Origin: Clavaria fumosa
Lineage: Eukaryota; Basidiomycota; Agaricomycetes; Agaricales; Clavariaceae
Assembly (NCBI GenBank): GCA_951802425.1
Contig: OX637795.1
Location: 3,142,501-3,206,500 of the forward strand
Direction of reading: 5' to 3'
DNA length: 64,000 bases
Positions 2,039 through 57,973 of this stretch are shown in pieces. The stretch's first letter is position 1. Each line of letters opens with the position of its first letter. Below the pieces are notes generated by a model. The model worked only from the letters and a program-made list of their open reading frames with translations, was not told the origin of the DNA and ran no database searches. Both the position numbers and the translations under genes were made by a program.

Positions 2039-2040
2039 CA

Positions 2041-2050
2041 ATACTAACAT
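2041..2050 (+). other. self-primer binding site
   Basis: ATACTAACAT begins two bases after the 5' LTR and is the reverse complement of ATGTTAGTAT at 1976-1985. This is the arrangement known from Tf1, where the 5' end of the RNA folds back to prime reverse transcription. No TGG-starting tRNA-type primer site is present. Element 2 has the equivalent pair with a compensating base change. Confidence 0.75.
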
Positions 2051-7316: not shown

Positions 7317-7327
7317 GAGGGGGGTGA

Positions 7328-7632
7328 TGTCAGGATCGCTTACATAAGCAGGTTGGAAAGGCCAAGAAAGGATCGCAAAAGAGTTGCGGGAAGTTTGCGG
7401 ACGAGTCACGTGACCCGAACGGGTGGTGGCTTACATAATGGGAAAATCACGTGACCCGGGCCTGGACGCATCACGTGACGCACGGGGTCCGAGCGTGGGA
7501 ACGCCGGCAACTCCCGAACCGCTCGCTATATATACTACGTCGCTTTCTTACTTGTACCCTTTTCCCCTTATGTTAGTATCGTCATCATCGACCTTACGTT
7601 AAGTTGTGTGAACCGTGAGACTAAGTCTGACA
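7328..7632 (+). repeat. 3' LTR of element 1
   Basis: 305 bp, preceded by the purine-rich tract AGAGGGGGGTGA (polypurine tract). Compared with the 5' LTR it has G or C at five positions where the 5' copy has A or T. Confidence 0.95.
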
Positions 7633-12429: not shown

Positions 12430-13335
12430 TGTAAGGATAATATGCGGTTTAAACATAGAAACATGACAGATACTGATCATCTGGATATTTCGGGATCCAA
12501 AGCAATTGCGTCCGATACAATCCGATAACAATCCGACACTGTCCGATAACGACCAATACTTATCCGACATCGGACTCTCCGGTCTCCGACTCCCCGTGAA
12601 GATCACAGCCCGCAGGTCACACATACCACCTACACCCCTCTATTTCATCACTCCAGCATGGTCAGCACTCGACATACTCACTATTCCATTCCCATTCCTC
12701 TATTTCATATACATGCTGTAAATTTCATATTGTGATCCCTTTCAACCATCCGATCATTGAAACATTTCAAACCCTTTGCAGTGCCTTGTCCATTGTTCCT
12801 AGTACCCCTTTGCTGTACCAGTCTCACTCTCCTTGATTTTATGAGCGGTCCGGATGTACACCGATCATCGGACACTTCATTCCTCCAAACTGCATAACTC
12901 TTTTATGATACATGACCTCTATATGACCTTGCACACGATACCGCATTACCTTCTGTAGCTTCCGGAAACTTCCGTAAAACTGGATTTGCTGTACTTACGA
13001 AAATGTACTTAAGTATGTACCAGGTTCTATGGTAATCCAGCTTTTTGAATGCCCACATTGTGCTGTGATTTTTAGCAAGCTCACCCTTCGTCGTACCTAT
13101 TGATCCGCTGGCCTTCATCGTCGCCGGCCCCTCGAACCTTCGATCCAAACATTGGACTCTATCGGATCCGATACCGGATACTCTGGACAACGTATATTTT
13201 CACTCTCTGAACCTTTTGCACTCAACCTCTACATCCTCCAAGGTTTTGTCTAGTGTACCCGTTGTGTAATAAGACCCCCTGAAGAACCCGGCCACGAACA
13301 TCTATTTGCAGCCAACACCTGTACAGCCTACTACA
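12430..13335 (+). repeat. 5' LTR of element A
   Basis: 906 bp, TGTAAGG..CTACA. It contains a CCGA-motif cluster like that of B but thinned by CpG changes. A TGG-starting primer-site-like sequence begins at 13340. Confidence 0.92.
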
Positions 13336-13339
13336 ATTT

Positions 13340-13358
13340 TGGAGCCCACCACGAGGGG
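13340..13358 (+). other. tRNA-type primer binding site of element A
   Basis: TGGAGCCCACCACGAGGGG begins four bases after the LTR. The leading TGG fits pairing to a tRNA CCA end. Element B has the same sequence with one CpG difference, starting at 20992. I cannot name the tRNA. Confidence 0.55.
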
Positions 13359-13385
13359 GTCGTAACAACGTCTTCACTACAGCCT

Positions 13386-15722
13386 TTGAGGATTCCCAGA
13401 GGCTCCTCCGCTTTCCAGCCTCAACACTCCGAACGCCTAAGAACTCGATACCCCAATCCGATTACACAACCACCACATTCCGGACCTCCTGGAGAAGTAA
13501 TTGAAACTTCCCACTTTCTTCCATCGGACATTCCCAGTATTTCATCCATTGTTTACTCCCACACAAGCTTCGCCACCCCGGTTACCTCATTACCACAGAT
13601 CTTCGAAGAACCACACTCACCGCTCACACCACTACCCCTCGAACTGAACACCTTACAATTTCCAACTGACGAACCACAGAATCCTCTCGACGCCGTACAA
13701 GAACTTCCTCACGCAGCAATACCAATAGCCAACCAACCGAGATATCCGCTCCGTGGCGCTCACGGGGCCCCCGCCTTTGACAGAGTACCAACCCATCTCA
13801 ACCGGTATTTCGAGGACATCGACATCGTACTCACCGGCATTAATCCAGACATTCCGGAAGCCGATTTAATTCGGTACGCAAAGCACTACCTCGACACAGA
13901 CACATGTCTCCTCTGGGAGACCCTCACACCAGCCCCGGACCCGGTATGGACCTGGGAAACCTTCAAAGCGGCTGTCCGACGCCTTTATCCAGGCTCCGAT
14001 GGCGGTCGTTTGTTTTCTGTCGCCGATTTGGACCGTTTCATATCAGACTCGGCCCAAAAAGGGGTTTACACACGCGCAGAACACGGAGAATATTACCGGG
14101 ACTTTCTCCAGATCACTTCGCACTTGATCACCTCCCAACGTATGTCCACAAATGACAGAAACTGGCTTTACATCCTCGGATTTGGGGATCATACTAGGCG
14201 CCGGATCGAGAGCCGGCTCGCGATTATACTACCTAATGACCATCCGGAGGACCCATACCTGATGAATGAGGTTCACACCGCAGCCGAATTTCTACTCTCC
14301 TCAACATCCCCGCACTCTGTAACAACCGATCAATTCTCCGGACCCATCCGTTTCACATCCTCAGCCCCTGGGAGAGAAACGAAACCAGTGATCAAGAAGG
14401 AAGAATTTGATATGTCCGCAGCCTTGGCAACATTTGCCTCCACAATGGCTCGCCTCGAATCAATTTTATCAGCCCAGTCTCTCGAACAGGCAAAATGTTC
14501 TGCTCCTTGGACGACAAATTCCCCTGCAGGCCGGACGTGTAATTTCTGTTCGGAACCAGGTCATTTTGTTAGTGCCTGTCCGAAGGCCCTCGAATACATC
14601 AAGTCTGGTAAATGTATACAGAACACCGAAGGCAGGATTTGCCTTCCCTCCGGATGATACTTGCCCGGGACTATCATAGGAAATAACTTATCCGAGCGCT
14701 TTGACAAGTACTATGCTACTTACCAATCCCAGAACACGCAACCGGCGACTACTGCGGTATTTGAAGCACAGCCGACCGGATCATTCGTAAATCCCCTGGA
14801 TACGGAAGACGATTTGGAAGAAGAAGATGGCGAGAGGATCGCCCTGAAAAATATGGCTTGCACCTTTGCCAATGATGTGGCAAAGAAAATAGACAAGAGC
14901 AAAAGGAAAGCGCCCGCGCCCCGAAATAACGATCCACAGCCATCTAGGTTACCTCCTCTGCCCGCCGTTGTCATTACCTCGCCTCTGGTCACGCGCCCAT
15001 CGAAGCCGGAAAGAATCGAACGATCCGACGTCCAGTATCATTACCAAGCTCCGATAGAAAATCCGGTAACAGTTCAACAAGTTTTCGATCACGCACTCGA
15101 CATTCCGGTCCATGTGACGCCCCGTGAATTACTCGCCATTTCCGGAGACATCTGCAAAAAGATGAAGGATATGGTCACCGCCCACCGCATCCCGGTCACT
15201 GCTTCCGTCGTACAGGACACGCTTTACACGAACATTACGGCCCCGGATACCTCCAATCTCGTCGTCGCAGTCGATGCTGCTCCACTCCGCATCGTAGAGG
15301 GCATTCTAGACGGCCGGATCGCAGCGGAGTGTCTTCTTGACCAGGGTAGCTCTATTGTAGCAATGAGGCGAGATGTTTGGGAAAAGCTCGGCAATCTGTT
15401 GCACTCCGAACGAGTAATCCATATGGAATCATCCCATGGCACCATTGCTCCGATGCTCGGACTCATCAAAAATTTCCCTTTACAGATCGGTCTGTGCACG
15501 TTCCATGTTCAAATGCAAGTGGCAGACATGCTACCCTGCGAGGTTCTTGTTGGACGACCATTTTTTATGCTAACCGGCTCTCAGACAATTGACCATCCCC
15601 ACGGAGCCCAGGATCTCATTCTAAATGATCCGAACACAGGAGAACGAATCATTGTGCCAACAAAGGAGCGAATCCCGGTCCACAAAACATCGAATAACAA
15701 GAAACCGCATCCGGATTTTTGA
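13386..15722 (+). pseudogene. gag: Gag-protease frame of element A, one nonsense codon
   Basis: An open frame collinear with B's Gag-Pro. The zinc knuckle (CX2CX4HX4C) is near 14541 and the protease motif D-Q-G-S-S near 15340. TGA at 14655-14657 corresponds to CGA in B. The residue at B's start Met is Ile here (ATA), so even the start is lost unless initiation occurs upstream. Confidence 0.85.
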
Positions 15723-18700
15723 TGGCTGGAGCCTCGATTATCCGCAAATCTATGGACTCACCTCCGGTCGATGCGGACACGGAACCTATACCCAAATACG
15801 AGACTCCAGCCATCTTTTCCACTTCCGTTCAAAATTTCTCATCGTCTTCCCTTGTAAATTTAGCACCTCCCGATCCCATTCCCAGTATCAGTTTCTCGGA
15901 CATTTCTCTCGATTGCGTTGATTCCCCGGTTGCTATCGAATGTGAACCGACACATCCAAATATCGCATACCCTCTGTACAACAATACCTCCGAAATGAAT
16001 TTCCCATCTACGGACATCGTCATGCCAGTTTACCTTGGAAAGAAATACAAGAAAGTCGCAAACCGTGTCAACCCGATCAAAGCAACTCTACCCGAAGAAT
16101 TTCGGATTGTCCGACGACAACACCCCGATCCCCTCTCCGATATCCCCACTCTTCCGACACACCCCCCCGATTTCACCCCCGGTCTCCGATATACTCAAGA
16201 CCGGAAAGAAGCGCATAACGCAAATCCCACCAGATTTTTATGGCCAGAGGAAGAAAAACTCGTTCATTATCTTATTAAAGCCCAGGAAGATGCCTTTGCT
16301 TGGACGGAGACCGAAAAAGGACGATTCGACGCAAAATACTTCGATCCCATTATCATCCCGACAGTCGAACATGTCCCTTGGATCTTCAAAAATATACCGA
16401 TTCCTCCCGGCATCTATGACGAAGTCCTGAAGGTTATCCGAGACAAGATAGCGGCCGGAGTCTACGAAGAATCCAACTCCTCCTATCGGTCCCAGTGGTT
16501 TTGCGTGTTAAAGAAGGACGGAAAGTCTCTCCGACTTGTCCATAACCTCCAGCCATTAAACAAAGTCACCATCGGCGACTCTGTGGTTCCCCCGATAATG
16601 GAAGTTTTTGCGGAATCATTCGCTGGACGCGGATGCTACGGATCTCTTGATCTATTCGTCTCCTTGGATCAACAATCTCTTGACGAACAGAGTCGAGACC
16701 TTACCACATTCCAAACCCCTCTTGGAGCCAAACAGCTCACTTGCATCCCCATGGGATACACCAACGCGACACAGATTATGCATGGAGACGTCACGCATAT
16801 ACTACAAGACGAAATTCTGCACATAACCATCCCATTCGTAGACGATGTAGCAATTAAGGGCCCGGAAACCCGATATGAGCTTCTGGACGGCACATACGAG
16901 ACGATCCCGGAGAATCCGCAAATATGGCAGTTCGTTTGGGAGCATTTGAATAACGTCAACCGGGTGCTCCAACGAGTCAAAATAGTTGGAGGAACCTTTA
17001 ATGGCAAGAAAATGACAATTTGCACCCCCGAAACAATCGTTACTGGATACACATGCACATATGAAGGGCGAGTTCCGGACGCTTCCAATGTTCAGCGCAT
17101 TCGAGACTGGCCTCCGTGCGAAACACTTACAGATGTATGATCATTTTTAGGCATCTGCAGACTGCTCTGGATATTCATCAAAAACTACGCCATACTTGCC
17201 CGACCACTTGTCAGCCTAACTCGTAAGGACGTTCCATTCAGGTTCGAAGAAGAAGAGCAAAATTCAATGGACTGACTTAAACACGCAATAGTCAACTCAT
17301 CCGCCATTCGACCGATCGATTACCGCTCTGGATGGCCTGTAATTATGGCCATCGACTCGTCCAACATCGCTGTCGGCTTCGCGCTATTTCAAATCGGACA
17401 AGATGGAATCCGATACCCATCCAGATTCGGCTCGATTACCTGGAACGAACGCGAGGCCCGATACTCTCAAGCAAAAATCGAATTATACGGACTCTTCCAC
17501 GCACTTCGGTCATACCGGATTTACCTTATCGGCCTTCCGAAATTCACTGTTGAAATGGACGCGAAGTTCATTAAGGGTATGCTAAACAATCTGGATGTTC
17601 AACCAAACGCTGCCATGAATCGATGGATTGCCGGTATACTACTCTTCGATTTCGACCTTGTTCATATTCCCGCAGATAAACACACTGGAGCCGACGGACT
17701 ATCACGCCGACGTGCCGCAGATGGTGAAGAAGACACCGAGTCCGAAGATCACGAAGACTGGATCGATCGGAGCTACGTATTCGCCATGGAACACATGAAT
17801 CGAGCACCGGACGCTTCCTACCCATCCGAGACGCCACTCGCCGGCATCGCCCACTCTCGCTTCAAAGTTTACACAGGATCGATGCTACTCAATTCGACAG
17901 TACCATCCAATGATTCACCGGCTCCGAATGAATCCTCCACCATCCTTATACCATGACCCGATGCAGCAAAGAAAAGGGAAGAACAGATCCGCAAAATCGA
18001 ATCTTTCCTTCGAAACCTGATCCGTCCTTCTGGCATCAACGCAAACCAGTTCCGACGATTAGTCCGCTCCACATCCCAGTTCTTCATTCTAGATGACAAG
18101 CTATGGCGTCGCCGACCTAACGGATGCCACCAGGTAGTACCTCCGGACCACAAACGGCTCGCAATTATCACAGAGGCACACGATTCACTCAGCCACAAAG
18201 GCGTTTACATTATCCGGACACGTATTCTAAATCGGTTCTGGTGGCCGGTGTTGGATCAAGACGTAAAATGGTTTGTCCGAACTTGTCACCAATGCCAGAC
18301 TTGGCAAATCCAGAAGATTTTTATTCCACTGACGGTCGCCACACCGGCTGGTCTTTTCCGTCGAGTGCACATTGACACCATGTTCCTACCCAGAACTCGC
18401 GGTTTCCGACTTCTTGTCCACGCCCTATGTTCATTATCCGCATATCCAGAAGCAAGACCGCTACAAAACAAGACTGCCCGACTTCTCAGAACCTTCATAT
18501 TTGAAGACATACTGTGCTGATGGGGAGCAGTAGAAGAGATCATTACGGATAACGGCACCCCATTTATCAAGGCCCTCGACTTCCTCAAGACACGGTACAG
18601 AATCTGTCACATCCGTATCTCTGGATATAATTCCTGCGCTAACGGCGTCATCGAATGTGCCCACCGGTCAGTCCACGAGTCATTAATCAAAGCAGCAGAC

Positions 18701-19456
18701 AGAGATGAATCGAAATGGCCGGACATCTTACCCTCGGTCATTTGGGCAGAACGAACCACAATCCAACGATCCACCAGTCACTCTCCGTTTTACATCGCAC
18801 ACGGCGTCGAACCGCTTTTCCCTTTCGACATATCCGAAGCAACATATCTAATTCCGACCGCCGATGCCCCAATGACCACTCCGGAACTGATAGCCCTTCA
18901 TGCCCGCCAACTGCAAAAACGAGAAGAAGATCTTGCAACAATTGCCGATAAAGTGCTCGCTGCTCGCAAACAATCTGTCAAGCAGTTCATCGACGCACAC
19001 TGCAAGTCTATTATTGATTACGACTTCCAACCTGGATCGCTGGTATTGATCCGAAACTCGGCCGTAGAAATGGAATTAAACCGGTAGACAAAACCGCGAT
19101 TCTTCGGACCGATGATCGTTGTCCGCCAAACTCAATACGGCACATATATTCTCTCGGAACTCGACGGGGCCGTCTCCAAAATCCACTACGCAGCTTTCCG
19201 CATCATTCCCTACTATCCGTGGTCGCAAACATCGATTCCGGTCACTGCTATCACCGACCAAATGACAGAGATAAACGAGGACGTCCCTCACAATCAAACA
19301 CACGAGACGTCACATAACTCTATTGACACCGAAGATGAGGAAAGCCAGGTGGCCGATCTATCTGATGAATCCGACAATGAGGCCGCCGATACTGACGCTC
19401 CGGAAACTCATCCGCAACGCTCCGGAGCAACCTGGAACCTTCGGCCTCGCCATTAA
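15719..19456 (+). pseudogene. pol: Pol frame of element A, five nonsense codons
   Basis: RT (F-V-D-D-V near 16835), RNase H and integrase align with B without any frameshift over 3.7 kb. Stops lie at 17138-17140, 17273-17275, 17954-17956, 18518-18520 and 19085-19087. The first four are TGA where B has CGA. The last is TAG where B has AAA. At the gag-pol junction this copy has TGATG, so the gag stop overlaps a pol ATG. B lacks that ATG. Confidence 0.9.
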
Positions 19457-19511
19457 GCATTTTGTTTCCATCCAATCCTTCACTCCTCCATAATTTACAT
19501 TGATTTCAACG

Positions 19512-19539
<28 letters not shown>
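19512..19539 (+). repeat. 28-base A tract after pol of element A
   Basis: An uninterrupted run of A between the pol stop and the antisense gene, followed by GAAATTTCGGACAA, which B shares. B has 21 A at 27167-27187. Confidence 0.9.
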
Positions 19540-19545
<6 letters not shown>

Positions 19546-19685
19546 TTTCGGACAACTCCAAACTTTATATCTGACGTTCTTCACTTTATACCTCAGTCTC
19601 ACACTTCTCACCTATTTTTCCACTCAGTAACGAAACATAAAATTAAAACAAAAACAAAGAAAATTATTGTGTATTTAGCAGATGA

Positions 19686-20069
19686 CTAGCTGAGAAGGAG
19701 CATCCGGAGAAGCTCCGCCCCAGCCCTCACCTGATCCGCCCCCCTCTCCATCATCTGGAGCGCTCTCTCTAGCGCCTCCTTTCCGGACACCCCTGGCGCC
19801 GTCTCCCGCTCCTTTCCCTTCCGGCTAGGACCCGCCTCCGCCTTCCTCCTCTTCGCTGACAGCTCCTCCACCAGCTCCACGCTGTCATCCTCAATTTCAT
19901 CCTCCTCCTCCTCCTCCTCCGGCGTCGTCTCCTCGCGAACCGGTACCCGCGTTGCACCTCGCCTCGGCCTTTTGCTCGCGGTCGCTTCCACTGCCTTCGG
20001 ACCTACTCCGCTACGTTAGCCGATACAGATCCGGTACTCTCTTGACTTACCTCCGGCACCGGACACCGC
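19686..20069 (-). pseudogene. antisense cargo gene of element A, 3' part (exon 5 and part of exon 4)
   Basis: Minus strand. The last exon (about 20020 down to 19686) encodes an acidic, then Lys/Arg-rich C-terminus like that of the B gene, and ends early at a TAG. The upstream intron keeps GCTAACG as branch site and an AG acceptor. Element B is inserted in the adjoining 39-bp exon, whose other part lies at 29880-29903. Confidence 0.7.
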
Positions 20070-20987
20070 TGTAAGGACCATATGCGATCTAAACACGGAA
20101 ACATGACAGATACCGACTATCCGGATGTTTTGCGATCCAAAGAAATTACGTGCGATACGAACCGATAACGATCCGACACCGTCCGATAACGACCGATAGT
20201 ATCCGATACATGTCCGATGTCGGACACTTCGGTCTTCAATCCCCCGTGACGATCACAGCCCACCGCTCTCACACACCGCCCACGCCTCTCTATTTCACCT
20301 CTCCAGCACGGTCAGCGCTCGACATACACACTATTCCATTCCCATTCCTTTATTTCATATACCATGCTGTAAATTTCATATTATGATCCCTTTCAACCAT
20401 TCAATCGTTTAAACGTTTCAAACCCTTTGCAGTACCTTGTCCATTGTTCTTAGTACCCCTTTGCTGTACCAGCCCCACTTTCCTTCAGTTTATGAGCGGT
20501 CCGGACATTTGCTAGTTATCGGACATTTCATTCCTCCGAGCTACTCATTTCCCTTGTGATATAACTCCTTCATGTAACCCTTCACGCGACATGGCGCTGT
20601 TCCATGTGTTTTCCGGACATTTCCGTACATTCCAATTTGCTGTACTTACAGAACTGTACTTAAGTACACTCCGGACCTCTCTGAAAGACAGCTTTCTGAA
20701 CCCCTTCTCTCTGTTAGAAACCTCACCTAAGCTCACCCGTCGTCGCAACCTTCGATCCGCTGGCCTCCGTCGTTGCCGGCCCTTCGTCTTATCGCACCAT
20801 CCTTATCGGATTTTATCGGACACATAGCAGAATATCCCGGACACCGTATATTTCTATTTCTCACATATTTTGAATTCATACTCCACATCCTCAAGGGTGT
20901 TTGGTGAATCTCTAACGCCTTACAGGAACCCCTGAAGGACTTGACTGTAATCAAGCAGTTGCAGCAAGAACCGTAATACCCACTACA
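20070..20987 (+). repeat. 5' LTR of element B
   Basis: 918 bp, TGTAAGG..ACTACA. It carries the phased CCGA array at 20162-20217. Confidence 0.95.
20162..20217 (+). promoter_or_regulatory. helically phased CCGA array in the LTR
   Basis: CCGA(T/C) occurs at 20162, 20173, 20183, 20193, 20203 and 20214, spaced 10-11 bp, and TCGG follows at 20220. The same array is in the 3' LTR from 29054. One-turn spacing on one face of the helix suggests cooperative protein binding. CCG/CGG triplets are the half-sites of Zn2Cys6 proteins. Confidence 0.5.
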
Positions 20988-20991
20988 ATTC

Positions 20992-21010
20992 TGGAGCCCA
21001 CCGCGAGGGG
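20992..21010 (+). other. tRNA-type primer binding site of element B
   Basis: TGGAGCCCACCGCGAGGGG starts four bases after the LTR and is conserved in element A. tRNA identity not determined. Confidence 0.55.
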
Positions 21011-21376
21011 TTCAACAAGACGTCTTCACTACCACCCTCAAGGATTCCCAGAGGCTCATCCGCTCCTCAGCCTCGACGCTCCGAACGCCTGAGAAGTCGA
21101 AACCCGAATCCGATCACAGAACCACCGCCCTCCGAACCCCCCGGAGAAGTAATTGAAACTTCCCACCTTCTTCCATCGGACATTCCCAGTATCTCATCCA
21201 TTGTCTACTCCCACACGAGTTTCACCACTCCGGATCCCTCACTACCACAGACCTTCGAACAACCACACTCACCGCTTACACCACTTCCCCTTGAACCAGA
21301 CATCCTTCATTTCCCGCCCGAAACACCTCAGAATTCACCAGACGAAGTTCACTCACCGCCCCACGCACCAATACAA

Positions 21377-23374
21377 ATGGCCAACCAACCGAGATATCCG
21401 CTCCGTGGCGCCCACGGGGCCCCTGCCTTTGACGGAGTACCGACACACCTCAACCGGTACTTCGAGGACATCGACATCGTGCTCACCGGCGTCAACCCGG
21501 ACGTTCCAGAACCCGATTTAATTCGGTACGCCAAGCACTATCTCGACACCGATACGTGTCTCCTCTGGGAGACTCTTTCACCTGACCCGGACCCGGTATG
21601 GACGTGGGATACCTTCAAAGCGGCCGTCCGACGACTTTATCCAGGATCTGATGGAGGTCGCTTATTTTCCGTCGCCGACCTGGACCGTTTCATATCGGAC
21701 TCGGCCCAAAAGGGAGTTTACACGCGCGCAGAACACGGAGAATACTATCGGGACTTTCTCCGGATCACCTCGCACTTGATCACATCACAGCGTATGTCCA
21801 CAAATGACAGGAACCGACTTTACATCCTCGGATTTGGGGATCATACAAGGCGTCGGATCGAAAGCCGACTCGCTATCATACTACCAAACCACCATCCGGA
21901 GGATCCTTACCCCATGAATGAAGTACATGGTGCAGCTGAATTTCTTCTCTCCTCGACGTCCCCCCACTCTGCGACAACCGATCAACTTTCCGGACCCGTC
22001 CGTCTCGCATCTTCAGCCCCCGGGAGAGAAACGAAACCGGTAGTCAAGAAGGAAGAATTTGATATGTCCGCAGCCTGGGCAACATTCGCTTCCACAATGG
22101 CTCGCCTGGAATCGATTTTGACAGCCCAATCTCTCGAACCGGCAAGACACTCCGCTCCCCGGACAACGAACTCTCCCGCAGGCCGGACGTGTAATTTCTG
22201 TTCGGAAATAGGTCATTTTGTTAGTGCCTGTCCGAAGGCCCTCGAATACATTAAGTCCGGCAAATGTATACGGAACACAGAAGGCAGGATTTGTCTCCCC
22301 TCCGGACGATATTTGCCAGGCACTATCTCAGGGAACAACCTATCCGAGCGCTTCGACAAGTACTACGCTACATACCAATCCCAGAACACGCAACCGGCGA
22401 CAACCGCGGTATTTGAAGCACAGCCGATCGGACAATCCGCTCACCCCCCGGACATGGAAGACGATTCGGACGAGGAAGATGACGAGAATACCGTGTTGGA
22501 AAACATGGTCCGCACCTTTGCAAACGATGTCGCGAAGAAAGTAGACAAGGGCAAAAGGAAAGCACCCACACCCAGGAATACCGATCCTCAGCCATCTAGG
22601 TTACCGCCCCCACCCGCCGTTGTTATTACGCCGCCTCAGGTCACTCGTCCATCAAAGCCGGAGAAAATCGAACGACCCGACGTCCAGTACCATTACCAAG
22701 CTCCGATCGAAAATCCGGTAACCGTTCAACAAGTATTCGATCGCGCACTCGACATGCCAGTCCGCGTCACACCTCGCGAACTACTCGCCATTTCCGGAGA
22801 CATCCGCAAAAAGATGAAGGATGTGGTTACCGCTCGTCGCGTTCCGGTCACCGCGTCCGTCGTACAGGATACGCTCTATACAAACATTACGGTCCCGGAC
22901 ACCTCCGATCTTGTTGTCGCCGTCGACGCTGCTCCGCTCCGCATCGTAGAAGGGATATTGGACAACCGGATCGCCGCGGAGTGCCTGCTCGACCAAGGCA
23001 GCTCAATTGTGGCAATGCGAAGAGACGTTTGGGAGAAACTCGGCAACCCACTACACTCCGAGAACGTTATTCACATGGAATCCTCTCATGGCACCATCGC
23101 TCCGACCCTCGGACTCATCAAGAATTTCCCCCTACAGATCGGTCCGTGCACATTCCATGTTCAAATGCAAGTAGCAGACACGTTGCCCTGCGAGGTTCTT
23201 GTCGGACGACCATTTTTCATGTTAACCGGTTCCCAAACGATTGACCATCCCCACGGGGCCCAGGACCTTATTCTCAACGATCCAAACACCGGAGAAAGAA
23301 TCATAGTGCCAACAAAGGAGCGAATCCCGATCCGCAAATCCTTGAAGAACAAGAAACCGCATCCGGATTTTTGA
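21377..23374 (+). CDS. gag: Gag-protease polyprotein of element B
   Basis: 665 residues from the ATG at 21377. The frame is open for over 300 bp upstream but without ATG. A capsid-like helical region lies at about residues 15-190, a zinc knuckle CX2CX4HX4C near residue 272 and an acidic linker at about 350-400. An aspartic protease motif L-L-D-Q-G-S-S-I is near residue 537, with Gln where most families have Ser or Thr. Protease is therefore carried in the Gag frame, unlike in element 1. The stop TGA at 23372-23374 overlaps the pol frame by one register. Confidence 0.92.
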   Translation: MANQPRYPLRGAHGAPAFDGVPTHLNRYFEDIDIVLTGVNPDVPEPDLIRYAKHYLDTDTCLLWETLSPDPDPVWTWDTFKAAVRRLYPGSDGGRLFSVADLDRFISDSAQKGVYTRAEHGEYYRDFLRITSHLITSQRMSTNDRNRLYILGFGDHTRRRIESRLAIILPNHHPEDPYPMNEVHGAAEFLLSSTSPHSATTDQLSGPVRLASSAPGRETKPVVKKEEFDMSAAWATFASTMARLESILTAQSLEPARHSAPRTTNSPAGRTCNFCSEIGHFVSACPKALEYIKSGKCIRNTEGRICLPSGRYLPGTISGNNLSERFDKYYATYQSQNTQPATTAVFEAQPIGQSAHPPDMEDDSDEEDDENTVLENMVRTFANDVAKKVDKGKRKAPTPRNTDPQPSRLPPPPAVVITPPQVTRPSKPEKIERPDVQYHYQAPIENPVTVQQVFDRALDMPVRVTPRELLAISGDIRKKMKDVVTARRVPVTASVVQDTLYTNITVPDTSDLVVAVDAAPLRIVEGILDNRIAAECLLDQGSSIVAMRRDVWEKLGNPLHSENVIHMESSHGTIAPTLGLIKNFPLQIGPCTFHVQMQVADTLPCEVLVGRPFFMLTGSQTIDHPHGAQDLILNDPNTGERIIVPTKERIPIRKSLKNKKPHPDF

Positions 23375-26300
23375 GAGCTGGAGCCTCGAATGTCCGCAAA
23401 CCAACGGACTTACCTCCGATCAATGCGGACACGGAAGCTATACCCAGATACGAGACTCCAGCCATTTTTCCTACTTCCGTTCACGTTCCCTTATCGTTTT
23501 CCCTTATAAACCCAGTCTCTCTCGACCCCTTCCCCTGTATCAGTATCTCGGACGTTTCTCTCGATTCCGCTGATTCCCCAGTCGCTATCGGACGTGAACC
23601 GTCGCGTCCAAATGTTGCAACCCCCTTGTACAACAAAACCCCCGAAATAAATTCCCTGTCTACGGACGCCGTTCTTCCAGTTTACTTGGGAAAGAAATAT
23701 AAGAAAGTCGCGAATCGCGTCAATCCGATCAAAGCGACAGTACCCAAAGAATTCCGGATTGTCCGACGCCGACACCCGGACCCCCTAGCCGATATGCCAA
23801 CTCTTCCGACCCATCCCCCCGATTTCACCCCCGGTCTTCGATACACTCAAAACCGGAAAGACACGCACAACGCCAACCCCACCGGATTCTTATGGCCGGA
23901 GGAAGAAAAACTCGTTCACCATCTTATTAAAGCCCAGGAAGACGCCTTCGCTTGGAAAGAGACCGAAAAAGGACGATTCGACGCAAAATACTTCGATCCG
24001 ATTATTATCCCGACAGTCGAACATATCCCTTGGATCTTCAAAAATATACCGATTCCCCCCGGTATTTACGACGAAGTTCTCAAAGTAATCCGGGAAAAGA
24101 TCGCAGCCGGCGTTTATGAAGAATCCAACTCTTCTTATCGGTCCCAGTGGTTTTGCGTGTTAAAGAAAGACGGAAAGTCTCTCCGACTCGTGCACAACCT
24201 CCAGCCGCTTAACAAAATCACTATCGGCGATTCCGCGGTCCCCCCGATAATGGAGGTATTTGCGGAATCATTCGCCGGACGCGGATGTTACGGATCACTC
24301 GACCTTTTCGTCTCCTTCGATCAGCGGTCTCTGGACGAACGAAGCCGAGACCTCACCACGTTTCAAACCCCTCTCGGAGCAAAACGGCTCACCTGCGTCC
24401 CCATGGGATACACCAACGCGACGCAGATTATGCATGGAGACGTCACGCATGTTCTACAAGATGAAATTCCGCACGTAACCATCCCATTCGTAGACGATGT
24501 AGCGATCAAGGGCCCGGAAACCCGATACGAGCTTCCGGACGGCACCTACGAGACGATCCCTGAGAATCCGCAAATACGACGATTTGTTTGGGAGCATTTA
24601 AATAACGTCAACCGGGTGCTCCAACGAATCAAGAAAGTCGGAGGAACCTTTAACGGCAAGAAAACGACAATTTGCGTTCCCGAAGCAGTCGTTACCGGAC
24701 ATACGTGCACATACGAAGGACGAGTTCCGGATGCCTCCAACGTTCAGCGTATCCGGGACTGGCCTCCTTGCAAAACCCTGACCGATGTCCGATCATTTTT
24801 AGGGGTTTGCGGACTACTCCGGATATTCATTAAAAACTACGCCGTACTTGCCCGACCTCTTGTCAGTCTAACTCGCAAGGACGTGCCATTCAGATTCGAA
24901 AAAGAAGAACAAAACTCGATGGACCGACTCAAACACGCGATTCTGAACTCATCCGCCATCCGACCAATCGACTACCGCTCCGGACAACCCGTAATCCTCA
25001 CCGTCGACTCATCAAATATCGCCGTTGGTTTCGCACTCTTCCAAATTGGAGAAGATGGAATACGATATCCCTCCCGCTTTGGCTCCATTACCTGGAACGA
25101 ACGCGAGGCCCGATACTCACAAGCAAAAATCGAATTATACGGACTCTTCCGCGCACTTCGGTCGTACCGGATTTACCTTATAGGCCTTCCGAAATTTACT
25201 GTCGAAATGGACGCGAAGTTCATTAAGGGTATGCTAAACAATCCGGACATTCAACCCAACGCTGCCATGAATCGATGGATTGCCGGTATACTACTCTTCG
25301 ATTTCGATCTTGTTCATATTCCCGCAGATAAGCACACCGGAGCCGACGGACTATCACGCCGACGTGCCGCAGATGGTGAAGAAGATACCGAGTCTGAAGA
25401 TCACGAAGAATGGATCGATCGGAGCTACGTATTCGCCATGGAACACATGAATCGAGCACCGGACGCTTCCTACACATCCGAGACACGACTCGCCGGCATC
25501 ACCCATACTCGCTTCAAAGTTTACACAGGATCGACGCTACTCAATTCGACGGTACCACCCGAGGAATCACCGACCCCGAACGAATCTTCCGCCGTCCTTA
25601 TACCCCGATCCGATGCAGCAAACAAAAGAGAAGAACAGATTCGCAAAATTGAATCTTTCCTTCGAAACCCGATCCGTCCCTCCGGCATTGACGCAAACCA
25701 GTTCCGACGACTGGTCCGCTCCGCATCCGAGTTCTTCATCCTAGATGACAAATTATGGCGTCGCCGACCTAACGGATACCACCAAGTAGTACCTCCGGAC
25801 CACAAACGTCTCGCAATTATCACAGAGGCACACGATTCACTCGGCCACAAAGGTGTTTACGTTATCCGGACACGTATTCTAAATCGGTTCTGGTGGCCGG
25901 TGCTGGATCAAGACGTAAAATGGTTTGTCAAAACTTGTCACCAATGCCAAACTCGGCAAATCCGGAAGATCTTCATTCCACCGACGGTCGCTACACCGGC
26001 CGGTCTTTTCCGTCGAGCGCACATTGATACTATGTTCCTACCAAGAGCCCGCGGTTTCCGACTTCTCGTCCACGCCCGATGCTCGTTATCCGCATATCCG
26101 GAAGCAAGACCGCTACGAAACGAGACCGCCCGACTTCTCGGAACCTTCATATTCGAAGATATACTATGCCGATGGGGAGCAGTAGAAGAGATTATCACGG
26201 ATAACGGAGCCCCATTTATCAAAGCCCTCGATTTCCTTAAGAAACGGTACGGAATCCATCACATCCGTATATCCGGATACAACTCCCGCGCTAACGGCGT

Positions 26301-27108
26301 CATCGAACGTGCCCATCGATCGGTCCGTGAGTCGTTAATCAAAGCAGCAGATGGAGACGAATCGAAATGGCCGGACGTTTTACCCTCAGTCATTTGGGCA
26401 GAACGAACCACGATCCAACGGTCCACCGGCCACTCCCCATTTTACATCGCACATGGCGTCGAACCGCTTTTCCCCTTCGACATATCCGAAGCAACATATT
26501 TAATTCCGACCGCCGACGCCCCGATGACCACTCCGGAACTGATAGCCCTTCGTGCCCGCCAACTGCAAAAACGAGAAGAAGATCTAGCAACAATCGCCGA
26601 TAAAGTGCTCGCTGCCCGCAAACAATCCGTCAAGCAGTTCATCGACGCACACCGGAAGTCTATTATCGACTACGACTTCCAACCCGGATCGTTGGTATTG
26701 ATCCGCAATTCGGCCGTTGAAATGGAATTAAATCGAAAAACAAAACCGCGATTCTTCGGACCGATGATCGTCGTTCGCCGAACACAATATGGCGCCTATA
26801 TTCTCTCGGAACTCGACGGCGCCGTTTCCAAAATCCACTACGCAGCTTTCCGCATCATTCCCTACTATCCGAGGTCGCAAACATCGATTCCGGTCACTTC
26901 TATCATCGACCAAACGACGGAGATAAACGAGGACATCTCTCCCTATCAAATACACGAGGCGTCACCCAACTCTATCGACAGAGAAGATGAGCAAAACCAA
27001 GCGGCTGACCTATCCGATGAATCCGATAATGAAACCACCGACGACGACACTGCAGAAACTCGTCCGCAACGCTCCGGAGCAACCCGGAACCTTCGGCCTC
27101 GCCATTAA
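23371..27108 (+). CDS. pol: Pol polyprotein of element B (RT, RNase H, integrase)
   Basis: 1245 codons with no stop. RT lies at about residues 240-420 with F-V-D-D-V near 373. RNase H begins near residue 544 with T-V-D-S-S and continues to H-x-x-G-A-D-G-L-S-R. An H-H-C-C finger is at about 820-860, and an integrase core has Asp near 884, D-N-G near 944 and Glu near 977. The RT-RNase H-integrase order makes it Ty3-like, and there is no chromodomain. The frame starts in the -1 register over the gag stop and has no nearby ATG, so frameshifting or reinitiation is inferred. The listed start is the first codon of the open frame, not a proven start. Confidence 0.92.
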   Translation: MRAGASNVRKPTDLPPINADTEAIPRYETPAIFPTSVHVPLSFSLINPVSLDPFPCISISDVSLDSADSPVAIGREPSRPNVATPLYNKTPEINSLSTDAVLPVYLGKKYKKVANRVNPIKATVPKEFRIVRRRHPDPLADMPTLPTHPPDFTPGLRYTQNRKDTHNANPTGFLWPEEEKLVHHLIKAQEDAFAWKETEKGRFDAKYFDPIIIPTVEHIPWIFKNIPIPPGIYDEVLKVIREKIAAGVYEESNSSYRSQWFCVLKKDGKSLRLVHNLQPLNKITIGDSAVPPIMEVFAESFAGRGCYGSLDLFVSFDQRSLDERSRDLTTFQTPLGAKRLTCVPMGYTNATQIMHGDVTHVLQDEIPHVTIPFVDDVAIKGPETRYELPDGTYETIPENPQIRRFVWEHLNNVNRVLQRIKKVGGTFNGKKTTICVPEAVVTGHTCTYEGRVPDASNVQRIRDWPPCKTLTDVRSFLGVCGLLRIFIKNYAVLARPLVSLTRKDVPFRFEKEEQNSMDRLKHAILNSSAIRPIDYRSGQPVILTVDSSNIAVGFALFQIGEDGIRYPSRFGSITWNEREARYSQAKIELYGLFRALRSYRIYLIGLPKFTVEMDAKFIKGMLNNPDIQPNAAMNRWIAGILLFDFDLVHIPADKHTGADGLSRRRAADGEEDTESEDHEEWIDRSYVFAMEHMNRAPDASYTSETRLAGITHTRFKVYTGSTLLNSTVPPEESPTPNESSAVLIPRSDAANKREEQIRKIESFLRNPIRPSGIDANQFRRLVRSASEFFILDDKLWRRRPNGYHQVVPPDHKRLAIITEAHDSLGHKGVYVIRTRILNRFWWPVLDQDVKWFVKTCHQCQTRQIRKIFIPPTVATPAGLFRRAHIDTMFLPRARGFRLLVHARCSLSAYPEARPLRNETARLLGTFIFEDILCRWGAVEEIITDNGAPFIKALDFLKKRYGIHHIRISGYNSRANGVIERAHRSVRESLIKAADGDESKWPDVLPSVIWAERTTIQRSTGHSPFYIAHGVEPLFPFDISEATYLIPTADAPMTTPELIALRARQLQKREEDLATIADKVLAARKQSVKQFIDAHRKSIIDYDFQPGSLVLIRNSAVEMELNRKTKPRFFGPMIVVRRTQYGAYILSELDGAVSKIHYAAFRIIPYYPRSQTSIPVTSIIDQTTEINEDISPYQIHEASPNSIDREDEQNQAADLSDESDNETTDDDTAETRPQRSGATRNLRPRH

Positions 27109-27166
27109 GTATTTTTTCTCCATCATATCCTTCATTTTTCTATACTTCACATTGATTCACACCTTC

Positions 27167-27187
27167 AAAAAAAAAAAAAAAAAAAAA
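27167..27187 (+). repeat. 21-base A tract between pol and the antisense gene
   Basis: A run of A sits where the pol and antisense transcripts converge, at the same place as the 28-A tract of element A. Confidence 0.9.
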
Positions 27188-27329
27188 TCGAAATTTCGGA
27201 CAAGTCCAAACTTTATACCCGACGTTCTTTCAACCATTTTCTCACATTCTCACATTCCTCACTTATCCCACACGACATACCATACCAAATAGAAAAAGAA
27301 AAACATATATAAAAACAAAAACAAAATAT

Positions 27330-28804
27330 TTACTTAGAGGACGACTCGCCAAGGAGGAGCATCCGGAGCAGCTCCGCTCCGGCCTTCACCTGGTCCGCCC
27401 CCCTCTCCATCATCTCCAGCGCCCTATCGAGCGCCTCCCTCCCGGACACCCCTCGCGCCACCTCCCGCTCCTTACCCTTCCGACTTGGTCCCGCCTCCGC
27501 CTTCTTCTTCTTTGCCGGCGGCTCCTCCACCAGCTCCACACTGGTATCCTCCTCAATCTCGTCCTCCTCCTCCGGCGTCGTCTCCTCGCGAACCGGTACC
27601 CGCGTCGCACCTCGCCTCGGCCTCTTACTTCCGCTCGCTCCCGCCGCCTTCGGACCTGTTCCGATACGTTAGCAAATGCGGACCCGATACCTTCTCGACA
27701 TACCTTCCGTTCCGGACACCGCCGCTCTCTCTGTTTTCGCTCCTGAAACACACCTATCATTTGTCTCATCATGAAAAATAAAAAGAATACCACTTACCTC
27801 GCACAGCCGACAGACTGCACGATACCTTATACGTCCGGCACCACCGGCACGCTATCCCCTCCACTCCGTAGCACGCCCGCCACTTCCGGGTGCACTCCTT
27901 GCACCCCGGAACGTGCTCCTAATCATTATATCAGACGTCGAAAAAGCCTCACATATCTTAATTAACCACTCACCTTATCTCCAGGCTGCCGCGCAGCCCG
28001 GGACTCTATGTCGCTCTTCGCCCCGCCTCTCCTCCCTCGCCCTCGCTCCGCTGCCTTCCGCCTCGCGATCTCCACCCACACCGGAGTCGCCATCATCCGC
28101 GCACCGTCCCGGTGCACGAACATCGGCTCCTCCACCGACTGCTCGCCTCCCCCGGCCACCGCACTCACCGCCGCCACCTCGTCCACACGCAGCTCTCCGG
28201 CGTCCGGTGATATCATCGTCGTTGTTACCGCCGCTGCACCGGACTCCGCCGCTCCCGTCGTCGTCGTTGTTGCCGCCGCCGCCGCCTCGCCCTCGTCGTC
28301 GCTGTCACTTACGACAATTAAGCGCGCCCGGGCAAGGCGCGCCCTCTTCTCGGCAGCCCTCGCCGCCTCCGCCCGCCTCTCCTCCGCCTCCGCCTCTGCT
28401 GCGGCCCGCTCAGTAGCCGCCCTCTCCTCGCTCGTGCGCTGTTTCTCGGCCTCGACCTCCTCCCGCCTTCTCGTCCGCTCAGCGGACCACTCGTCCCCGC
28501 GGAGCTTCCGCCACTTCTTGAGCCTTCGCGCGACCCGGACGAGTCCCTCGTCCACCTCCACGTCGTCGTCGATCGCTGCCACATATCCGGCAAGAAAATC
28601 GTCCTAAAAACGTTGTCAGTGCGATACAAAAAAAAGTACGAAAGATTCTCGTTCACGCACCGCGTCACCCGCATACGTCCCCACCCACTCCGCGCACTCT
28701 CCATCCTGCCCCCGATCCGGCAACTCCTCGCCCGGCGCCATGGCCTGCGCCTCGGTCATCGCCTGGACTGCGTTTCGAAAGATTGAAGAATCGAAGTTTT
28801 CCAT
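27330..28804 (-). CDS. antisense cargo gene: Zn2Cys6-type protein, five exons
   Basis: Exons (minus): 28804-28661, 28603-27974, 27918-27798, 27742-27704, 27655-27330. Introns are 57, 55, 55 and 48 bp, GT..AG, with CTGAC, CTGAT and CTAAC branch-like sites. The 1260-nt sum is in frame: 419 residues. Exon 2 encodes a long charged, Ala/Glu/Arg-rich coiled-coil-like region and a Ser/Asp patch. Exon 3 encodes CX2CX6CX7CX2CX6C, the spacing of a fungal Zn2Cys6 binuclear cluster. Exon 5 encodes an acidic stretch, K-K-K-K and a helical C-terminus. All six cysteines and the exon pattern are conserved in element A. It is probably nuclear and DNA-binding (inference). I know of no named family for it. Confidence 0.78.
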
Positions 28805-28922
28805 TGTCGGAGAGTTGACGTGTTGCTGTCGCTGGAGAAAACACAAGGGTGTGTTTGGACCTATGTGCACCCACACGACGCGTACTTCACGATCAACAAA
28901 CCGTTATTTGGCCTTGTTTGGT

Positions 28923-28942
28923 TGCAACCGAGGGCGGTTGCA
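28923..28942. promoter_or_regulatory. perfect dyad with everted CGG triplets
   Basis: TGCAACCG, spacer AGGG, CGGTTGCA: 8-bp arms, perfect inverted repeat, with CCG-N4-CGG at its centre. It lies between the start of the antisense gene and the 3' LTR, where that gene's promoter is expected. Element A has a degraded copy near 30700. Confidence 0.55.
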
Positions 28943-28961
28943 TTTTCAGCCCCCGGGAGAA

Positions 28962-29879
28962 TGTAAGGACCATATGCGATCTAAACACGGAAACATGACA
29001 GATACCGACTATCCGGATGTTTTGCGATCCAAAGAAATTACGTGCGATACGAACCGATAACGATCCGACACCGTCCGATAACGACCGATAGTATCCGATA
29101 CATGTCCGATGTCGGACACTTCGGTCTTCAATCCCCCGTGACGATCACAGCCCACCGCTCTCACACACCGCCCACGCCTCTCTATTTCACCTCTCCAGCA
29201 CGGTCAGCGCTCGACATACACACTATTCCATTCCCATTCCTTTATTTCATATACCATGCTGTAAATTTCATATTATGATCCCTTTCAACCATTCAATCGT
29301 TTAAACGTTTCAAACCCTTTGCAGTACCTTGTCCATTGTTCTTAGTACCCCTTTGCTGTACCAGCCCCACTTTCCTTCAGTTTATGAGCGGTCCGGACAT
29401 TTGCTAGTTATCGGACATTTCATTCCTCCGAGCTACTCATTTCCCTTGTGATATAACTCCTTCATGTAACCCTTCACGCGACATGGCGCTGTTCCATGTG
29501 TTTTCCGGACATTTCCGTACATTCCAATTTGCTGTACTTACAGAACTGTACTTAAGTACACTCCGGACCTCTCTGAAAGACAGCTTTCTGAACCCCTTCT
29601 CTCTGTTAGAAACCTCACCTAAGCTCACCCGTCGTCGCAACCTTCGATCCGCTGGCCTCCGTCGTTGCCGGCCCTTCGTCTTATCGCACCATCCTTATCG
29701 GATTTTATCGGACACATAGCAGAATATCCCGGACACCGTATATTTCTATTTCTCACATATTTTGAATTCATACTCCACATCCTCAAGGGTGTTTGGTGAA
29801 TCTCTAACGCCTTACAGGAACCCCTGAAGGACTTGACTGTAATCAAGCAGTTGCAGCAAGAACCGTAATACCCACTACA
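28962..29879 (+). repeat. 3' LTR of element B
   Basis: 918 bp, apparently identical to 20070-20987, preceded by the purine-rich GGGAGAA. Confidence 0.95.
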
Positions 29880-30568
29880 CCGCGACCTTCTCGGCTTTCA
29901 CCCCTGAAACACACCTTTTAGATTGATTCATCAAGAAATAAAAAGAATATTACTTACCTCGTACAGCCGAGAGACTGCACGACACCTTATAGTTCCGGCA
30001 CCACCGGCACGCCACTCCTTCCACTCCGTAGCACGAACGCCTCTTCTGGGCACACGCCTCACAGGCCGGGTCGTGCTCCTACTCACCGATCAGAAATCTA
30101 AGAATCAAAAACTCCAATTGACGACTTACCTTGTCCCCAGGCTGTCACGCAGCCCGGAGCTCGATGTCTGCCCCCACTCCGACCCTCCGCCCTCTCCTCG
30201 TCCGCACGTTCCTGTTCGGCTTCGGCCTCCTCCTGTTTCCTTGTCCGCTCGGTGGTCCATTCGTCCCCGCGGAGCCTTCGCCACTTTTTGAGCCTTCGCG
30301 CGACGAGGACGAGTCCTTCGTCCACCTCCACGTCATCGTCGATTGCGGCAACATAGCCCGCAAGGAAATCATCCTGAAAACTTGTCAGTGCAAAGTGAAA
30401 AAGAAAGAAAGAAACACCACGCACCGCATCACCCCCATACATCTGCACCCACTCCGCGTATTCACTGTCCTGCCCCCGCTCCGGTAATTCCTCACCCGGC
30501 GCCATGGTCCGCGCCTCCGTCATCGCCTGGGCCGCGTTCCGGAAAACAAGAGCGTCGAAGTTTTCCAT
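29880..30568 (-). pseudogene. antisense cargo gene of element A, 5' part
   Basis: Minus strand. ATG at 30568 opens exon 1, closely similar to B's. Exon 2 is shortened by an internal deletion of roughly 390 bp relative to B, and a TGA near its end replaces an Arg codon. Exon 3 (about 30075-29955) keeps all six Zn2Cys6 cysteines. Part of the 39-bp exon 4 is at 29903-29880, with the rest beyond element B. Splice sites are preserved, so B entered what had been a functional gene model. Confidence 0.7.
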
Positions 30569-30728
30569 TTTTTTTGGATGGTTGATGCATTGCTGTTATT
30601 GGAGAAGACACAAGTGCGTGTTTGGACCTATGTGCACCCACACAACGCGTACTTCACAATCAACAAACGATTATTTGGCCTTGTTTGGTCGCAACCAAGG
30701 GCGGTTGCATTTTCAGCCCCTGGGAGAA

Positions 30729-31634
30729 TGTAAGGATAATATGCGGTTTAAACATAGAAACATGACAGATACTGATCATCCGGATATTTCGGGATCCAAA
30801 GCAATCGCGTCCGATACAATCCGATAACAATCCGACACCGTCCAATAACGACCGATACTTATCCGACATTGGACTCTCCGGTCTCCGACTCCCCGTGAAG
30901 ATCACAGCCCGCAGGTCACACATACCGCCTACACCCCTCTATTTCATCACTCCAGCATGGTCAGCGCTCGACATACTCACTATTCCATTCCCATTCCTCT
31001 ATTTCATATACATGCTGTAAATTTCATATTGTGATCCCTTTCAACCATCCGATCATTGAAACATTTCAAACCCTTTGCAGTGCCTTGTCCATTGTTCCTA
31101 GTACCCCTTTGCTGTACCAGTCTCACTCTCCTTGATTTTATGAGCGGTCCGGATGTACACCGATCATCGGACACTTCATTCCTCCAAACTGCATAACTCT
31201 TTTATGATACATGACCTCTATATGACCTTGCACACGATACCGCATTACCTTCTGTATCTTCCGGAAACTTCCGTAGAACCGGATTTGCTGTACTTACGAA
31301 AATGTACTTAAGTATGTACCAGGTTCTATGGTAATCCAGCTTTTTGAACGCCCACATTGTGCTGTGATTTTTAGCAAGCTCACCCTTCGTCGTACCTATT
31401 GATCCACTGGCCTTCGTCATCACCAGCCCCTCGAACCTTCGATCCAAACATCAGACTCTATCGGATCCGATACCGGATACTCCAGACAACGTATATTTTC
31501 ACTCTCTGAACCTTTTGCACTCAACCTCTACATCCTCCAAGGTTTTGTCTAGTGTACCCGTTGTGTAATAAGACCCCCTGAAGAACCCGGCCACGAACAT
31601 CTATTTGCAGCCAACACCTGTACAGCCTACTACA
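30729..31634 (+). repeat. 3' LTR of element A
   Basis: 906 bp, collinear with 12430-13335. Differences are nearly all CpG transitions; one G/T transversion is near 31257. Confidence 0.92.
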
Positions 31635-36110: not shown

Positions 36111-36179
36111 AATATGCTACTTATCAATGAAGTACATGGAAATATTGTGGACAGTAACCACGTACATAAAGTGAATTAC

Positions 36180-36990
36180 ATGACAGTTGCCAGAGATGCA
36201 AAATATCCTATGTAATGTGGTGGCCTTGATTCAAACCAGTCAAGGATATCCTATTTAATTTGGTGGCCTGGATTCAAACCAGTCAAGGATATCCTATTTA
36301 ATTTGTTGGCTTGGATTCAAACCAGTCAAGGATATCCTATTTAATTTGGTGGCTTCAATTCAAACCAGTCAAGGACATCCTATTTAATGTGGTGGCTTGG
36401 ATTCAAACCTGTCAAGGATATCCTATTTAATTTGGTGGCTTGGATTCACACCAGTCAAGGATATCCTATTTAATATATCTGCCTGGATTCAATCCAATCA
36501 AGGATATCCTATTTAATTCGGTAGCCTGGATGTGATTGATTGATGGATATCCTATTTCATTTGGTGGCTTGGATTCAATCCAGTCAAGGATATGATATCC
36601 TATTTAATTTGGTACCTTGGATTGAAACCAGTCAAGGATAACCTATTTAAATTGGTGGCTTGGATTTAAACCAGTCAAGGATATCCTATGTAATTTGCTG
36701 GCTTGGATTCAAACCTGTCAAGGATATCCTATTTAATATGGTATCCCTGATTCAATCCAATCAAGGATATTCCATTTAATTTGGTGGCCTGGATTTTCTT
36801 CAGTCATGGATATCCTATTTATTATGGTTGCTTGGATTCAATCCAGTTAAGGATATCCTATTTAATTTGGTGGCCTGGATTCAATCCAGTCACGGATACC
36901 CTATCCAATTTTGCTGGACCTGAGGTTATCTGGTCAAGAATATCCTATTTAATTCACTGAACCCATGGTTATCCTGGCAAGGATATCCTC
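36180..36990. repeat. 43-bp minisatellite, about 18 units
   Basis: Unit of the type CAAGGATATCCTATTTAATT plus a GGTGGCCTGGATTCAAACCAGT part, period 43 bp (starts at 36241, 36284, 36327 and on). Each unit carries the AGGATATCCT palindrome. Units diverge more toward the right end. The stretch 36991-37267 holds only degraded repeat-like sequence. Confidence 0.9.
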
Positions 36991-37267
36991 CGCCAGCCAC
37001 ATATATTACTAGAAAATCAGATATCTCCGGCAGAATCCAGTACCCCATTATATACAGGGGATTTGCAGTGTCTGGTATCCCGTTGTATACTAGAATATCT
37101 GACTGAACTATGTGGCTACAGAGTCCTACATAGAAACATGTAGCTAGTGGCAGGTCCTACATCTAAACTATGCTCAACTACACTCAACTGCACAACCGCA
37201 CAATTGCAGCAATCAATATTTGTATTTGTTTTATGATCAACAAAGTCATGTGATACTCTAATTGTAA

Positions 37268-51430: not shown

Positions 51431-51434
51431 GATT

Positions 51435-55568: not shown

Positions 55569-55575
55569 GAGGGAG

Positions 55576-57962: not shown

Positions 57963-57973
57963 TCACCCCCCTC

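Follow-up and report, generated by a model that had tools for sequence, protein, structure and literature searches.

Why would an LTR retrotransposon carry, on the strand opposite to its own genes, a gene split by introns, and what might the product of such a gene do? In the 64-kb stretch of DNA analysed here (the window), one LTR retrotransposon is nested inside an older relative, and the inner one is the carrier (Table 1). A preliminary description had placed in it five minus-strand exons and four GT..AG introns of 48-57 bp, adding up to 420 codons, with a CX2CX6CX7CX2CX6C pattern in exon 3. These coordinates and counts were found to be correct. The interpretation attached to them, that the element carries its own DNA-binding protein, is partly supported by the results below.

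The carrier element and its antisense gene

The inner element is of Ty3 type, with TG..CA LTR ends and with protease followed by RT, RNase H and integrase. The RT match in pol reached 28.0 bits, slightly below its Pfam cut-off of 29.6, and those of RNase H and integrase H2C2 lay above theirs. A chromodomain, the mark of chromoviruses, had no match at the integrase end of this pol (Pfam, E 0.01); two other Ty3 elements in the window have one. The LTRs (20070-20987 and 28962-29879) are 918 bp each and identical, which indicates a recent insertion, and the 4-bp duplication CCGC lies at 20066-20069 and 29880-29883. Across the longest aligned block the inner and outer elements are 84% identical, and the outer LTRs are 75% identical to the inner LTR. 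Comparison of the two elements places the inner insertion within exon 4 of the outer element's copy of the antisense gene. Three more LTR elements, two chromodomain Ty3 and one copia, lie at 1723-7616, 51201-55805 and 57673-63286 of the window, and a tandem array with 43-bp spacing between its copies lies at 36116-37022.

Table 1. Features of the two nested elements, in window positions
Feature	Position	Strand	Remark
Outer element, first part	12430..20069	+	Older and diverged; contains the remainder of its interrupted antisense gene (about 20069-19680, minus)
Inner element	20070..29879	+	Ty3-type LTR retrotransposon, 9,810 bp; carries the antisense gene
gag	21377..23374	+	Aspartyl-protease-like C-terminal part; sub-threshold Pfam matches
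pol	23371..27108	+	RT, RNase H, integrase H2C2, in Ty3 order (Pfam)
Antisense exon 5	27330..27655	-	326 nt including stop TAA
Antisense exon 4	27704..27742	-	39 nt
Antisense exon 3	27798..27918	-	121 nt; CX2CX6CX7CX2CX6C
Antisense exon 2	27974..28603	-	630 nt
Antisense exon 1	28661..28804	-	144 nt; ATG at 28804
3' LTR of inner element	28962..29879	+	U3 part upstream of the gene as read on the antisense strand
U3 array	29054..29108	-	CGG, single orientation, every 10-11 bp
Outer element, second part	29884..31634	+	Exons 1 to 3 of its antisense gene, with part of exon 4 (about 30568-29884, minus); 3' LTR from 30729

The antisense gene (28804-27330, minus strand) sits between pol, which ends at 27108, and the 3' LTR, which begins at 28962; about 220 bp separate its stop from that of pol, and about 157 bp separate its ATG from the LTR. 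The joined exons make 1,260 nt, or 419 aa plus stop. All four introns (57, 55, 55 and 48 nt) have GT..AG borders, and each brings an in-frame stop when read through, so that the protein would need splicing.

Searching the source genome (48.76 Mb, 17 contigs) at the DNA level gave at least 32 full-length close copies, the window's own included; these counts are lower bounds, as 40 of 160 candidates were scored. The spliced frame is open in 29 of the 30 closest-copy loci, at 419, 440 or 445 aa (the window copy is L001), and the remaining one, L022, has an 11-nt deletion in the gene. Among the open close copies exon lengths differ by 78 or 15 nt and intron 1 by single bases (54-60 nt). Because the close copies are too alike for selection tests, diverged relatives were added, and gene models for 49 copies were built by aligning them with the window gene. 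These 49 include only L001, L002 and L023 from the 30 close loci, and also L034; they leave aside the interrupted outer copy (L036), the incomplete matches L051, L056 and L069, and L065, L031-L033 and L035, whose places duplicate other loci. A protein-collection search gave four metagenome fragments matching exon 2 among 7,995 scored candidates.

GT..AG was present at all four exactly homologous sites, without adjustment, in 44 of the 49 modelled copies. Five copies are exceptions: L085 lacks one acceptor, L076 has an acceptor displaced by 5 nt, and truncation or rearrangement seems to have affected L048, L062 and L071. Exon 1 measures 144 nt in all 49 copies, exon 3 measures 121 nt in 47 and exon 4 measures 39 nt in 48. 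Precise loss of an intron, or an intron-less copy, was not seen among the 49, as is expected if only the sense RNA gets copied. This agrees with the earlier proposal that the introns pass intact through retrotransposition, the genomic RNA being copied from the strand on which they are not splice signals. Since the copies were found through the antisense gene, elements without it would escape detection. Frames of at least 400 codons occur in 18 of the 49, counting L046 and L075 (no ATG), L059 (altered C-terminus) and L052 (no stop within the cropped stretch; cut at 452 codons). The ATG is replaced by an A-run in L040, L046, L067 and L075, in two of which the frame is otherwise long and open; slippage, loss or a different start may lie behind this.

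Selection was measured with NG86 dN/dS ratios. For 146 pairs with dS above 0.1 among the 18 long-frame copies, the median was 0.26 (range 0.21-0.52), not near 1. Regional medians were 0.19 for the N-terminal part, 0.39 for the linker, 0.17 for the zinc region and 0.21 for the C-terminal part. When 16 sequences (L002 and L023 omitted) were read in the other five frames the ratios were 1.38, 1.13, 1.37, 0.38 and 1.45, against 0.27 in the gene frame. The value of 0.38 belongs to a reverse frame with 1-7 stops per copy, which is taken to share wobble positions with the gene. Differences at codon positions 1, 2 and 3 numbered 828, 886 and 1969. Comparing the inner copy with the decayed outer copy gave ratios of 0.09 (gag), 0.36 (pol) and 0.35 (255 codons of the antisense gene), with exon 5 alone at 1.01. 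This evidence supports an intron-bearing coding gene that is under purifying selection and is kept in most copies examined; as judged from its sequence, the gene is real and was selected while the family moved. The introns of the window copy are 64-94% identical to those of 15 diverged copies and synonymous sites differ more (dS 0.47-0.90), so a second constraint on the intron DNA is possible.

The cysteine cluster of exon 3

Fungal Zn2Cys6 proteins have the spacing CX2CX6CX5-12CX2CX6-8C, into which the exon-3 pattern falls. The six cysteines, at residues 264, 267, 274, 282, 285 and 292, all lie within exon 3; their spacing is exact in 47 of the 49 modelled copies, and they are invariant across the 18 long-frame copies. 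One open recent copy, L019, has lost the third cysteine. The domain resembles that of Gal4-type proteins in having CX2CX6C twice, a 7-residue linker and basic residues within the cluster. It is unlike them in its place in the middle of the protein and in its Zn_clus (PF00172) score, which was 11.2 bits for the spliced protein against a cut-off of 21.

Other searches gave little further guidance on the fold. Among 11 exon-3 peptides, 10 matched PF00172 at E up to 10, the best at 0.011 and below the cut-off; four of the 11 matched zinc_ribbon_6 (best E 0.0028). PF00172 itself found 16 places in the genome, all above the cut-off (26-38 bits) and none at a listed copy of the element family. PDB sequence searches returned chance-level hits and no relative; as a yardstick, GAL4 used as the query reaches PUT3 at just 15 bits. 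AF2 predicted two short helices for exon 3 at a pLDDT of 48, too low to inform on the fold, and hhalign against GAL4/LAC9 gave 31% over 14 columns. A Pfam scan of the spliced protein gave a chance WLM match only. Of the Zn2Cys6 cluster claimed in the preliminary description, spacing and cysteine conservation stood and the profile match did not; with these reservations the data support a zinc-cluster-like domain, its Zn2Cys6 label resting on spacing and conservation.

By eye, the 18 long-frame copies share two conserved basic stretches and a conserved C-terminal segment, and most of them an acidic SDSDDE-type motif; these features would fit a nuclear protein. The longer LIVVSDSDDE-type motif, at about residues 141-152 in most of the 18, resembles a SUMO-interaction motif.

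YCGGA sites and insertion sites

The usual half-site of Zn2Cys6 proteins is CGG. CGG triplets by themselves were enriched throughout the element, beyond the LTR too, and this led to a motif analysis. In the inner LTR, TATCGG occurs 7 times against 0.5 expected from dinucleotide shuffles and TCCGGA 4 times against 0.2, and CGGACA, CCGATA, ATCGGA, CCGGAC and TCCGGA are among its seven most enriched 6-mers. The outer LTRs have 5 TATCGG and 2-3 TCCGGA, so that both LTR subfamilies are enriched; neither word occurs in the LTRs of the three other window elements.

Enrichment in coding DNA was measured by synonymous-codon shuffling, which removes coding effects, with the palindromic TCCGGA counted as two YCGGA half-sites. 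There were 39 YCGGA in gag against 21.5 (SD 3.5) and 71 in pol against 37.6 (SD 4.9), numbers reached by none of 500 shuffles in either case. Six control ORFs, from the two chromodomain Ty3 elements and the copia element of the window, showed no such enrichment. When 509 5-mer classes were ranked in gag and pol together, CGGAC, CCGGA, ATCCG, TCCGA and ATCGG were five of the top six. The antisense coding sequence was enriched in all 6 copies tested (18 available), with at most 6 of 300 shuffles reaching the count. Over its full length the inner element contains 175 half-sites where 72.5 (SD 8.3) are expected, and no whole-element enrichment was found in the three other window elements or in a 3-kb stretch of another family (L086). 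Thus gag, pol, the antisense gene and the LTRs are about 2-fold enriched in YCGGA beyond what protein sequence and codon usage account for. Both strands and every codon frame contain such sites, which argues that duplex DNA is recognised.

Single words were in excess in some controls: TATCGG (3 vs. 0.8) in one chromodomain element, TCCGGA (2 vs. 0.5) in non-element DNA and ATCGGA (2 vs. 0.3) in one control ORF. Between the inner and outer elements YCGGA was not clearly better kept than other words with an internal CpG (59 of 118 vs. 470 of 1018).

In the U3 part of the LTR the CGG triplets form an array, with CCG on the plus strand at 29054, 29065, 29075, 29085, 29095 and 29106. Over the inner LTR, CCG phasing at 10.4 bp was reached by none of 2000 random placements. 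The array is recognisable in 24 diverged LTRs, in which single CGG are often lost to TGG or CAG; relative to the inner LTR, 22 of them have a 10-bp gap and two (L055, L061) a 20-bp gap. CGG columns in related LTRs are modestly better conserved than other G/C columns (0.80 vs. 0.73). A 10.4-bp phasing in gag and pol was rejected, as 160 of 500 codon shuffles reached it, though it exceeded a jitter control (5 of 1000). Helical phasing is claimed for the LTR only, with gag and pol excluded.

Insertions of the family have a marked target. Of the 4 bp that adjoin the 3' LTR, the middle two were CG in 46, TG in 6 and CA in 3 of 55 distinct flank sequences, and nothing else, over a CpG background of 5% in the insertion flanks; TG and CA are expected from CpG decay. 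The flanks, taken on the 3' side of L001-L056 and L061-L064, came from 31 young and 24 older loci. Two of the older ones are probably from one duplicated insertion (L037-L039), the young loci L009 and L023 lie in nearly identical target sequence, and LTR ends were not found for L057-L060. Both sides can be read in the window, where the inner duplication is CCGC/CCGC and the outer one reads CCAG and CCGG (12426-12429/31635-31638). Ginger1 transposons, with a Gypsy-type integrase, are described as making CCGG or CCGT duplications (PMC2836005), and by this analogy we read the CpG-centred target as a preference of the integrase, which is simpler than targeting by the antisense protein.

Ten of the 55 flanks lie in own-family sequence (L001, L005, L007, L012, L013, L016, L024, L041, L045 and L063), and in L001, L007, L012 and L024 the match extends to the antisense-gene region; self-nesting may be favoured. 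An apparent YCGGA excess in insertion flanks (81 vs. 51.2) was gone once own-family flanks were separated. The 45 insertions outside own-family sequence had 71 against 59.1, reached by 8 of 100 shuffles and hence not enriched, and the 10 inside it had 55 against 27.0.

Possible roles of the antisense protein

As the best explanation we tentatively propose, at close to an even chance, that the antisense strand encodes a DNA-binding protein that recognises its own element and serves as regulator or anti-silencer. A promoter in or beside the 3' LTR would produce an mRNA read backwards, and host splicing would yield a nuclear protein of about 420-470 aa with the zinc-cluster-like domain. This protein would bind YCGGA, through its CGG half-sites, across the DNA of the element, with phased sites in U3. 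It would act on copies of its own family, and most probably would either activate the LTR or keep silencing away. Among the functions suggested in the preliminary description, the YCGGA pattern favours self-regulation or escape from silencing, and target choice is weakened, since the CpG centre looks like an integrase property.

An antisense ORF between pol and the 3' LTR is already published and is not new. It is established in the plant Ty3 elements Grande (gene23), RIRE2 and Retand (TRP28) (PMC7264820), and plant antisense ORFs are likewise covered in PMC11963269. These are like the present gene in position, orientation and presence in most copies, and a nuclear or DNA-binding protein is suspected there too: the Grande protein is described as nuclear, and DNA binding is predicted for the TRP28 domain of Retand (PMC7264820; PMC11963269). 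Boty of Botrytis cinerea has an antisense gene, brtn (PMC7264820; PMC8365987), which, compared by description only, is likewise a gene added between pol and the 3' LTR, again in a fungal LTR element. The accounts of the plant genes and of Boty in these sources give no known function (PMC7264820; PMC11963269; PMC8365987). The present gene differs from the plant ORFs in its zinc-cluster-like domain, its four conserved introns and the CGG-core motif found throughout its element. The main text of PMC11963269 does not contain the word "intron", and the Pfam scan found no match to the TRP28 domain (PF04195) in the antisense protein. In the open-licence literature searched we found no account of a fungal LTR element with a zinc-cluster gene in antisense, nor of the four conserved introns, zinc-cluster-like domain and matching motif decoration.

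To the known antisense genes the family adds one that is strongly supported as coding and that has both a candidate DNA-binding domain and, in the element itself, a candidate target; as that target is written into the element, protein and target are directly testable. It also shows that an element gene can tolerate introns when it lies antisense to the copied RNA.

The closest working model is VANC of the Arabidopsis VANDAL transposons. VANC21 is described as binding a short motif, in one orientation, that is densely present in elements of its own family but scarce in others (PMC5735166); its targets are often tandem repeats subject to gain and loss, and the protein leads to a loss of methylation (PMC5735166; PMC10398659). 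The likeness lies in an element-encoded protein, a short motif dense in its own family, a one-orientation array and a variable repeat number; here the motif is dense in the family and not in the controls, namely the three window elements and L086. Unlike the present element, VANDALs are DNA transposons, and their motifs are described as mainly noncoding, whereas YCGGA fills coding DNA too. The present motif also contains CpG, and the element is known from sequence alone. In the spliced protein the Pfam scan did not report the VANC domains DUF1985 and DUF287. It is possible, if doubtful, that a fungal LTR retrotransposon has independently reached VANC-like self-recognition and anti-silencing, with an antisense spliced zinc-cluster protein reading a CpG-containing YCGGA address accumulated through LTRs, gag, pol and the gene itself. 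In that case fungal retrotransposons would join plant DNA transposons as elements that counter silencing by accumulating a motif.

The sequence does not say whether the protein would activate, protect or repress, and an HBZ-like repressor is the main alternative. HBZ, a leucine-zipper factor of HTLV-1, is encoded antisense and acts on transcription of the virus. Compared by description only, it is of an unrelated protein type. It is like the present case in that its gene is antisense beside the 3' LTR and its product nuclear (PMC7264820; PMC11963269), the nuclear location being stated in PMC11963269. A self-limiting repressor here would bind the CGG sites of U3, damp the sense promoter and keep copy number tolerable. 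The structural, selection and motif evidence fits it equally, as does the antisense position beside the 3' LTR, shared with HBZ; the at least 32 full-length close copies and identical LTRs tell, indirectly, of a recent burst and not of tight restraint, and we consider such a repressor rather unlikely. An accessory factor that is structural or acts on RNA, in export or packaging of genomic RNA or in import of the integration complex, would make the cysteine cluster a fold or an RNA-binding module and leave YCGGA otherwise caused. The weak Zn_clus match would suit this, and such roles are discussed for antisense ORFs (PMC7264820). However, YCGGA on both strands and in all codon frames suits duplex DNA better than one RNA strand, and the pair of CX2CX6C halves looks more like a zinc cluster than like a CCHC knuckle; we regard an accessory factor as unlikely.

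It seems quite improbable that the antisense protein guides integration to chosen sites. Such guidance could explain the CG (or TG/CA) centre of all 55 distinct flanks and the 10 flanks within own-family sequence, but a preference for a single dinucleotide is more simply a property of the integrase, as the Ginger1 duplications suggest (PMC2836005), and the non-self flanks lack YCGGA enrichment. It is hardly credible that base composition produced the antisense frame by accident, or that an antisense RNA matters and not a protein. Long accidental ORFs do occur in this GC-rich stretch, for example at 27913-28416 and 28008-28607 on the plus strand. But diverged copies retain the introns, the frame, the six cysteines and a low dN/dS, and the other frames are either broken or have ratios above 1, save the one reverse frame (0.38); the sequence comparisons largely refute the accident.

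In another Ty3 family of the genome, two minus-strand antisense ORFs were seen at 774-1121 and 2162-2599 of L086 (G000 C2:867900-870900), probably downstream of pol. They have a zinc-knuckle-like CCHC motif, with zf-CCHC scores of 16.7 and 16.6 bits against a cut-off of 20.8, and are perhaps a second sort of antisense zinc protein.
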